In this document: piece after piece, positions 39,135 to 56,764 of the stretch
How the letters are laid out: each line of letters opens with the position of its first letter
How positions within the stretch are numbered: the stretch's first letter is position 1
DNA from: Actinomycetes bacterium
Lineage (GTDB): Bacteria > Actinomycetota > Acidimicrobiia > Acidimicrobiales > Palsa-688
Direction of reading: 5' to 3'
Assembly: GCA_021838445.1 (NCBI GenBank)
Contig: JAKCDU010000015.1
Span: 1 to 64,000, forward strand
DNA: 64,000 nt
Notes under the pieces: generated by a model
The model's database searches: none
What the model was told of the DNA's origin: nothing
Seen by the model: only the letters and a program-made list of their open reading frames with translations
Position numbers and translations under genes: made by a program

Positions 39135-39164
39135 TTGACAAGCGTGAAACTACGGTGTTGTAAT
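39135..39164 (+). promoter_or_regulatory. nrdJ: sigma70-type promoter of nrdJ
   Basis: TTGACA (39135-39140) and TGTAAT (39159-39164) are separated by 18 bases and lie about 100 bases upstream of the nrdJ ATG. The -35 element is a perfect consensus and the -10 differs at one base, unusually good for this GC-rich genome. The predicted transcript start near 39171 places the folded leader inside the 5' UTR. Confidence 0.7.
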
Positions 39165-39185
39165 TTGGTCCTCATGTTGTGGGCG

Positions 39186-39234
39186 GCGGGCGCGACTCGT
39201 CGACGAGACCACAACTTCTTGTGGTTACGCCCGC
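39186..39234 (+). promoter_or_regulatory. nrdJ: structured nrdJ leader, predicted three-way junction
   Basis: Closing stem GCGGGCG (39186-39192) with CGCCCGC (39228-39234). Inside it sit two abutting hairpins: CTCG/CGAG with loop TCGA (39196-39207) and ACCACAA/TTGTGGT with loop CTTC (39208-39225). All three helices are perfectly paired. The element ends 12 bases before the Shine-Dalgarno AAGGAG. The second hairpin also partly resembles an NrdR box as DNA. A cis-regulatory RNA or a repressor site are both possible. Confidence 0.6.
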
Positions 39235-39258
39235 AGACAGTCGAAGAAGGAGAGAGGT

Positions 39259-42114
39259 ATGGCAATAGCCCCCGAGCGCATGGGTATCGGTATCACCCGG
39301 TATTTCACCACCGCGGGTGAGAGTCCCTACGACAGCGTCCAGTGGGAGCGTCGGGACGCCCGGATAGTCCACTACGCAACGGGGGCCGTGGCCTTCGAGC
39401 AGCTCGGAGTGGAGGTGCCCGCCTCCTGGAGCGTCAACGCCACCAACATCCTGGCCCAGAAGTACTTCCGGGGCACCCTCGGGGAGCCCGACCGGGAGTG
39501 GTCGCTGCGTCAGGTGGTGGACCGGGTGGTCGACACCATCACCGCGTGGGGGCGCAAGGACGGGTACTTCCTCGACGACGAGGAGGCGGCGGCGTTCAGT
39601 GACGAGCTCAAGTACCTCGTGATCCACCAGCGGGCCGCGTTCAACTCTCCCGTGTGGTTCAACATCGGGGTCAAGGGCGTACCCCAGCAGGGGTCGGCCT
39701 GCTTCATCCTCTCGGTGGACGACTCGATGGACTCCATCCTGCGCTGGTACACCGAGGAAGGGACCATCTTCAAGGGAGGCTCCGGCGCCGGTGTCAACCT
39801 GTCGAAGATCCGCTCCTCCAAGGAAGGTCTGCGCGGGGGAGGCACGGCGTCGGGTCCGGTCAGCTTCATGCGCGGCGCCGATGCGTCAGCCGGCACCATC
39901 AAGAGCGGGGGCAAGACCCGCCGGGCGGCCAAGATGGTCATCCTCGATGCGGGCCACCCTGACATCGAGGACTTCATCTGGTGCAAGGCAATCGAGGAGC
40001 GCAAGGCCCGGGCCCTGCGCGACGCCGGCTTCGACATGGACCTCGACGGCAAGGACAGTCACTCCATCCAGTACCAGAACGCCAACAACTCGGTACGGGT
40101 CACCGACGAGTTCATGCAGGCCGTGCTCGACGACGCCGACTGGCACCTGCGAGCGATCACCACCGGTGAGGTCGTGCAGTCGGTGCGCGCCCGCGACCTG
40201 TTCCGTCAGATCGCCAAGGCGGCATGGGAGTGCGCCGACCCAGGGATGCAGTTCGACACGACCATCAACCGGTGGCACACCGCCCCCAACGCCGGGCGTA
40301 TCAACGGCAGCAACCCGTGCAGCGAATACATGCACATCGATGATTCGGCCTGCAACCTGGCCAGCCTCAACCTGCTCACCTTCCTCGAGGAGGACGGGGA
40401 CTTCGACGTCGCCGGCTTCAAGGCGGCCACGGCGTGCGTGTTCACCGCCCAGGAGATCATCGTCGGCAACGCCGACTACCCCACCGAGGCCATCGCCGAG
40501 AACTCCCGCCGCTTCCGCCAGCTCGGCATCGGCTATGCCAACCTCGGAGCCCTGCTCATGGCCGAGGGACTGCCCTACGACTCCGAGGGCGGCCGGGCCT
40601 GGGCGGCGGCCATCACCGCCCTGCTCACCGGGCACTCCTACGCCACCTCGGCCCGCACGGCCTCCCGGATGGGCCCCTTCGCCGGGTACCAGGCCAACCG
40701 GGACGCCATGTTGTCGGTGCTGCGCATGCACCGCGACGCGGCGTCGCACATCGACGAGGAGCTGGTGCCGCCGGAGATCCTCTCGGCGGCCCAGGAGGCG
40801 TGGGACTCGGCGGTGGAGATCGCCGAGCAGCACGGGGTGCGCAACAGCCAGGCCAGCGTCCTGGCCCCGACGGGCACCATCGGTCTCCTGATGGATTGTG
40901 ACACCACGGGAATCGAGCCCGACCTCGGTCTGGTCAAGATGAAGAAGCTGGTCGGTGGCGGCACCATGTCGATCGTCAACCAGACGATCCCCCGGGCCCT
41001 GCGCCGTCTCGGCTACCGAGCAGATCATATCGGCGACATCGTGGCCTACATCGACGAGCACAAGTCGATCGTGGGGGCCCCCCATCTGTCAGCCGGGCAC
41101 CTGCCCGTCTTCGCCTGCTCCATGGGGGACAACACGATCCATTACCGCGGCCACATCACCATGATGAGTGCCGTCCAGCCCTTCATCAGCGGGGCCATCT
41201 CCAAGACCGTCAACGTGCCCGAGGAGGTGACCGTCGAGGACGTCGAGCAGTTGCACATCGAAGCGTGGCAGCTCGGTCTCAAGGCCGTCGCCATCTACCG
41301 GGATAACTGCAAGGTGGCCCAGCCGCTGGCCACGGCCAAGAAGACCGTCCAGGACGCCACGGCCTCGCCTGCGGAGATCCACGACGCCGAGTTGGCTCTG
41401 AAGGTGGCCGAGCTGGAGCGGGCCCTGGAGCGCCAGACGACGGTGGTCGTGAAGCAGCCCATCCGCGAGCGCCTGCCCCGCAAGCGCAAGTCGAGCACCT
41501 TTGCCTTCCGGGTGGCCGACTGCGAGGGCTATGTGACCGCCGGCGAGTACGACGACGGACGGCCCGGTGAGGTCTTCATGAAGGTCTCCAAGCAGGGTTC
41601 GACCCTGGCCGGCATCATGGACGCCTTCGCCATCGCCGTCAGCCTCGGTCTCCAGCACGGGGTGCCGCTGGCCACCTACGTGCGCAAGTACACCAACATG
41701 CGCTTCGAGCCGGCCGGCATGACCGACGACCCCGACCTGCGCATCGCCCAATCGCTGGTCGACTACATCTTCCGCCGGCTGGCGGTGGACTACCTGCCCT
41801 ACGAGGACCGGGTGGAGCTCGGGGTGCTCACCTCGCAGGAGCGCACCCAGATGACCCTGCCAGGCATGGAGGAGGCGGTCACCCGCAACGCCCCCCTCGA
41901 CGCCGGTCCAGTCATCGAAGCCCAAGCCACGGATGCCCTGACCGAGGTCGCGCCGGCCGTACCGGCCGTCTCCGAGGAGCCGACCGTGGTGGAGCTGCGT
42001 CAGTCCCGTATCGAATCCGATGCGCCCTACTGCTTCCAGTGCGGGGTCCAGATGCAGCGGGCCGGCAGCTGCCACGCCTGCCCCTCGTGTGGGACGACCA
42101 GCGGCTGTTCGTGA
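39259..42114 (+). CDS. nrdJ: class II (adenosylcobalamin-dependent) ribonucleotide reductase
   Basis: Reduces ribonucleotides to deoxyribonucleotides with B12 as radical source. It has 951 residues. Visible are FNSPVWFNIG, the disulfide Cys in QQGSACFILS, GGSGAGVNLSKIRSS, the finger-loop NGSNPCSEYMHID with the radical Cys and Glu (near 353), SVLAPTGTIG, and a C-terminal redox tail FQCGVQMQRAGSC..CPSCGTTSGC with zinc-type and thioredoxin-reduced cysteines. The ATG has AAGGAG six bases upstream. The gene stands alone behind a strong promoter and folded leader. Confidence 0.95.
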   Translation: MAIAPERMGIGITRYFTTAGESPYDSVQWERRDARIVHYATGAVAFEQLGVEVPASWSVNATNILAQKYFRGTLGEPDREWSLRQVVDRVVDTITAWGRKDGYFLDDEEAAAFSDELKYLVIHQRAAFNSPVWFNIGVKGVPQQGSACFILSVDDSMDSILRWYTEEGTIFKGGSGAGVNLSKIRSSKEGLRGGGTASGPVSFMRGADASAGTIKSGGKTRRAAKMVILDAGHPDIEDFIWCKAIEERKARALRDAGFDMDLDGKDSHSIQYQNANNSVRVTDEFMQAVLDDADWHLRAITTGEVVQSVRARDLFRQIAKAAWECADPGMQFDTTINRWHTAPNAGRINGSNPCSEYMHIDDSACNLASLNLLTFLEEDGDFDVAGFKAATACVFTAQEIIVGNADYPTEAIAENSRRFRQLGIGYANLGALLMAEGLPYDSEGGRAWAAAITALLTGHSYATSARTASRMGPFAGYQANRDAMLSVLRMHRDAASHIDEELVPPEILSAAQEAWDSAVEIAEQHGVRNSQASVLAPTGTIGLLMDCDTTGIEPDLGLVKMKKLVGGGTMSIVNQTIPRALRRLGYRADHIGDIVAYIDEHKSIVGAPHLSAGHLPVFACSMGDNTIHYRGHITMMSAVQPFISGAISKTVNVPEEVTVEDVEQLHIEAWQLGLKAVAIYRDNCKVAQPLATAKKTVQDATASPAEIHDAELALKVAELERALERQTTVVVKQPIRERLPRKRKSSTFAFRVADCEGYVTAGEYDDGRPGEVFMKVSKQGSTLAGIMDAFAIAVSLGLQHGVPLATYVRKYTNMRFEPAGMTDDPDLRIAQSLVDYIFRRLAVDYLPYEDRVELGVLTSQERTQMTLPGMEEAVTRNAPLDAGPVIEAQATDALTEVAPAVPAVSEEPTVVELRQSRIESDAPYCFQCGVQMQRAGSCHACPSCGTTSGCS

Positions 42115-56688: not shown

Positions 56689-56764
56689 GCGGACGTGGCT
56701 CAGCTGGTAGAGCACAACCTTGCCAAGGTTGGGGTCGCGGGTTCGAATCCCGTCGTCCGCTCCA
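56689..56764 (+). tRNA. tRNA-Gly (GCC)
   Basis: A complete cloverleaf: acceptor stem GCGGACG/CGTCCGC, D-arm with GGCTCAGCTGGTAGAGC, anticodon stem CAACC/GGTTG with loop TTGCCAA giving anticodon GCC, and T-arm GCGGGTTCGAATCCCGT. The discriminator is T (56761) and CCA is encoded at 56762-56764. Confidence 0.97.

Follow-up and report, generated by a model that had tools for sequence, protein, structure and literature searches.

The question raised by the region upstream of nrdJ is whether this gene is controlled by a folded leader RNA or by a protein that reads the DNA. The window, the whole 64,000-nucleotide stretch that was analysed, encodes at 39259..42114 on the + strand a 951-aa adenosylcobalamin-dependent class II ribonucleotide reductase (RNR), which is recognized by NF005122 (1433 bits), TIGR02504 and the Pfam domains PF02867, PF08471 and PF12637. 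The gene starts with an ATG codon at 39259 (+ strand), behind an AAGGAG Shine-Dalgarno sequence at 39247..39252 (+ strand). The original prediction had correctly named this product a B12-dependent reductase and had placed before it, between 39186 and 39234, a three-way-junction leader RNA acting as a cis-element for nrdJ.

The near-consensus promoter proposed at the same time was confirmed. It consists of a -35 hexamer TTGACA (39135..39140, + strand), an 18-bp spacer and a -10 hexamer TGTAAT (39159..39164, + strand) with a TG one base upstream. The nrdJ promoters of relatives align on the same elements, TTGACA being kept 17-18 bp from a conserved TGTAAT (logo of 53 promoters). From the sequence, the nrdJ transcription start is predicted near 39171.

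Two putative NrdR boxes lie just downstream of the nrdJ -10. Box 1 (39167..39182, core C39170-N8-G39179, CCTCATGTTG) overlaps the predicted transcription start; its right half, TTGTGG, is canonical and its left half is degenerate. Box 2 (39209..39224, CCACAACTTCTTGTGG, core C39212-N8-G39221) is fully palindromic and is the only match to the exact pattern CCACAANNNNTTGTGG in the whole 4-Mb genome. Its sole departure from the consensus acaCwAtATaTwGtgt, which is built on a C-N8-G core, is a TT centre in place of the usual AT. Both peculiarities, the half-degenerate box 1 and the box 2 without an AT centre, recur in several members of the family to which the window belongs. One-mismatch look-alikes occur elsewhere in the genome (L094, L095), with no adjoining RNR gene among the listed reading frames.

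Logos built from 54 relatives read C-w-A-n-A-T-n-T-w-G for both boxes, with the C and the G nearly invariant; the C and G base pairs of the core have been reported as essential for NrdR. In these relatives the first box retains the C, AT, T and G together with the right half TTGTGG and lies about 11 bp past the first base of the -10, in most cases 10-13 bp downstream of the -10, while the second, further downstream, is the full palindrome CCACAAnnnnTTGTGG. For this clade the published NrdR regular expression is overly stringent. In the window it fits box 1 on the + strand but recovers box 2 only from the opposite strand; the pairs that it does find among the relatives still peak at 31 and 42 bp.

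The distance between the boxes in the window is 42 bp, that is four helical turns, with a 26-bp spacer between them. The spacing was surveyed in two sets of nrdJ upstream regions, the first comprising 84 loci from the same genus, family and order and the second 69 more non-identical loci from named records, chiefly Acidimicrobiia metagenome genomes. The best pair per region was sought over distances of 18-74 bp, and pairs scoring at least 20 were retained, the maximum among 415 shuffles being 19. In the first set, 47 of 51 such pairs were spaced by 31, 32, 41, 42 or 43 bp; in the second, all 55 were spaced by 30-32 or 41-42 bp. Altogether, 102 of 106 Acidimicrobiia nrdJ promoters have their boxes 30-32 or 41-43 bp apart. 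Such distances correspond to three or four turns of the B-DNA helix, and there is no reason for an RNA to obey such an integer-turn rule. For the NrdR proteins of four bacteria, binding is strongest when the box centres are separated by integer turns, usually three, with four tolerated (PMC12051234). The four-turn arrangement, which accounted for 42 of the 106 pairs, is common at Acidimicrobiia nrdJ promoters, and this adds a point to what is otherwise a mostly ordinary NrdR site. The length of the linker between the Zn-ribbon and the ATP-cone has been proposed to set the spacing tolerance of NrdR (PMC12051234). Within the order, linker length is nearly uniform and fails to separate three-turn from four-turn species, and it was rejected as the determinant of spacing there.

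The genome of the window encodes the corresponding regulator. Its nrdR gene adjoins lexA and is cut by a contig end, leaving the N-terminal 77 aa. This fragment matches solved NrdR structures and carries D15, R17 and R26-R29, through which the Streptomyces coelicolor protein has been described to contact DNA. Among relatives, nrdR was present in 77 of 99 genomes and co-occurred with the box pair: 49 genomes had both, 17 had neither, 15 had nrdR only and 2 had the boxes only (Fisher p = 2.9e-7, on counts that are not phylogenetically independent). The two boxes-only genomes are 75% and 84% complete. Several of the 15 nrdR-only genomes have sub-threshold pairs at 31, 32, 41 or 42 bp. A separate observation concerns the genomes G004 and G018 (L057 and L014), which belong to a single genus of the window's family; in both, nrdR was not detectable and the nrdJ boxes look decayed. 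By their sequences, a recent loss of NrdR control is possible in these two.

Taken together, these features suggest, with a probability of about 0.94, that 39167-39224 is a double-stranded DNA operator of NrdR, of the four-turn kind, through which nrdJ would be repressed at high dATP. Box sequence, phased spacing, conservation and nrdR co-occurrence argue for the operator; binding, repression and nucleotide control are carried over from characterised NrdR proteins, which act as repressors when their ATP/dATP-loaded tetramers occupy both boxes and which, in ATP-only forms, do not bind (PMC9110341, PMC12051234). With one box over the predicted nrdJ start and the other 42 bp away in the early transcribed region, ATP/dATP-loaded tetramers would bind both boxes when dATP is plentiful, bending the DNA and preventing nrdJ transcription from starting. 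A drop in dATP would change the oligomeric state of NrdR and free the DNA.

The reading to be weighed against this operator is the one from which the study started, namely that the junction in the leader RNA controls translation or elongation of nrdJ in response to B12 or nucleotides. Its three helices do exist in the window as perfectly Watson-Crick-paired + strand stems: P1 (7 bp, 39186-39192/39228-39234), which ends 12 bases before the Shine-Dalgarno sequence as had been described, P2 (4 bp, 39196-39199/39204-39207) and P3 (7 bp, 39208-39214/39219-39225). The predicted fold of the 97-nt leader has, however, the same stability as the average shuffled version (MFE -31.2, shuffled mean -31.2, sd 3.6, z = 0). 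When box 2 was held fixed and its flanks were dinucleotide-shuffled, 11% of the sequences likewise showed an outer helix of 7 bp or longer around it, and 6.7% showed such a helix together with a hairpin of at least 4 bp. Compensatory changes, whose lack in relatives had been named as grounds for giving up the RNA, were sought in 23 other leaders with 42-bp spacing, which align without gaps up to box 2. P1 and P2, paired in 38% and 37% of cells, were at chance (about 37.5%; slid controls 27-47%) and were neither conserved nor compensated. Only P3 persists (89% of cells), because P3 is NrdR box 2. Where P3 is broken, it is mainly at one position, by an uncompensated A to T change where the NrdR consensus has w and so accepts either base. 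Within the genus, three of the seven P1 pairs are kept in G002 and most in G001. Across nine near relatives aligned with MAFFT the whole structure was paired in 70% of cells vs 64% in shuffles, a mild excess in favour of the RNA that is carried by P3 (94%), with P1 and P2 near 54%; the RNAalifold consensus fold of this alignment lacks the junction. Among the scored regions, box 2 precedes the start codon by distances of 35 to 308, so the element keeps no fixed position relative to the ribosome-binding site. Searches with the Rfam covariance models (4227 families) gave no match in the region at the gathering score or at E<=10, the sole Rfam match within the window being a tRNA gene at 56689-56761, and a nrdJ-associated structured-RNA motif was looked for in the literature with nothing usable found. 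No adenosylcobalamin riboswitch (RF01482), the B12-responsive element used for comparison in the original prediction, lies upstream of nrdJ in the window, where its core had been rightly reported missing, or in 20 relatives. In this single genome the helices form a three-way junction by coincidence, and a leader RNA of this kind is extremely unlikely to control nrdJ. What stood of the proposed cis-element is a real promoter and regulatory site; its RNA structure did not. A remark made in passing, that one hairpin partly fits an NrdR site, proved the apt one, as that hairpin, P3, is box 2, with its matching logo. The candidate riboswitch is thereby removed and its signal is accounted for by NrdR, a well-known nucleotide-sensing repressor.

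A dual role, in which the NrdR operator in the DNA is accompanied by pairing of the box halves in the mRNA (TTGTGG/CCACAA) that modulates translation, is very unlikely. The RNAalifold consensus consists of exactly this pairing, but such pairing is inevitable wherever one palindromic box is present twice; it contains no compensated pair and would involve a box 1 that is only partly transcribed if the start is near 39171. That the palindromes are bound by another dimeric repressor is the least probable of the readings considered. The 15 nrdR genomes lacking a pair above threshold would agree with it, and NrdR binding in this clade is a prediction from sequence, but the consensus, the phasing on the helix, the gene targeted and the joint occurrence with nrdR are all as expected for NrdR.

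The proposed NrdR operator resembles those of nrdRJ and nrdAB in S. coelicolor (PMC9110341) in its palindromic C-N8-G boxes, its class II RNR target, its overlap with the start region and its genome-encoded NrdR. It differs in having four turns (42 bp) between the boxes instead of three (31), a half-degenerate box 1, an nrdR located beside lexA and not in an operon with nrdJ, and a longer linker in the protein; binding by the S. coelicolor NrdR is weaker at long spacers (PMC12051234). Long-spacer sites of Streptococcus (PMC12051234) share the extra turn, with 25-26 bp between 16-bp boxes compared with 26 bp here, whereas their targets are class Ib and III RNRs and their boxes are positioned differently relative to the promoter.

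A further element, common to nrdJ and recA promoters, is a lead left by this analysis. The nrdJ promoter spacer and -10 form a conserved sequence, GnAAYTACnnTGnTGTAAT (39146..39164, + strand; logo of 53 promoters), whose fuller form GnAAYTACnnTGnTGTAATT is an inverted repeat, AAYTAC-N6-GTAATT, with a left half nearly as conserved as the -10. Of 99 genomes, 35 contain exact matches, almost all of them at nrdJ; among these is the nrdJ of G078, in which nrdR was undetected. G079, likewise without a detected nrdR, has a close form at nrdJ. The exact matches away from nrdJ were at recA in G056 and G049 and, in G091, ahead of a small reading frame. Relaxed forms occur at recA promoters (L284, L285, L287-L316), often directly behind a LexA box, as AAYTACAnTnnTGTCGTT. 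In the recA promoters of 25 relatives the mean score was 11.4 out of 15, with 48% scoring at least 12 (shuffles 0%), and in 30 rpoB upstream regions no score exceeded 10. LexA was rejected as the reader of the element, since LexA boxes adjoin it at recA and none was seen at nrdJ; for PafBC, a match to its motif was not established. It could represent either an operator or a class of promoter. We would only tentatively propose, and at well under even odds, that Acidimicrobiia nrdJ and recA share an undescribed spacer operator whose bound regulator couples DNA-precursor supply to recombination repair.

Two minor observations concern nrdJ in the relatives. In G091, an adenosylcobalamin riboswitch (RF01482, 56 bits, L023:1112-1250, minus strand) is located on the same strand as nrdJ and to its 3' side, so that it would serve a neighbouring gene; it was the only such riboswitch detected in the 20 relatives. 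While nrdJ of the window has no intein, inteins are suggested in many nrdJ genes of the order, with frames of 1300-2300 aa (e.g. in G004, G005, G006, G007, G016, G017, G031, G068 and G074) that the 951-aa query matches in pieces, with breaks near residues 147, 355, 541 and 648.
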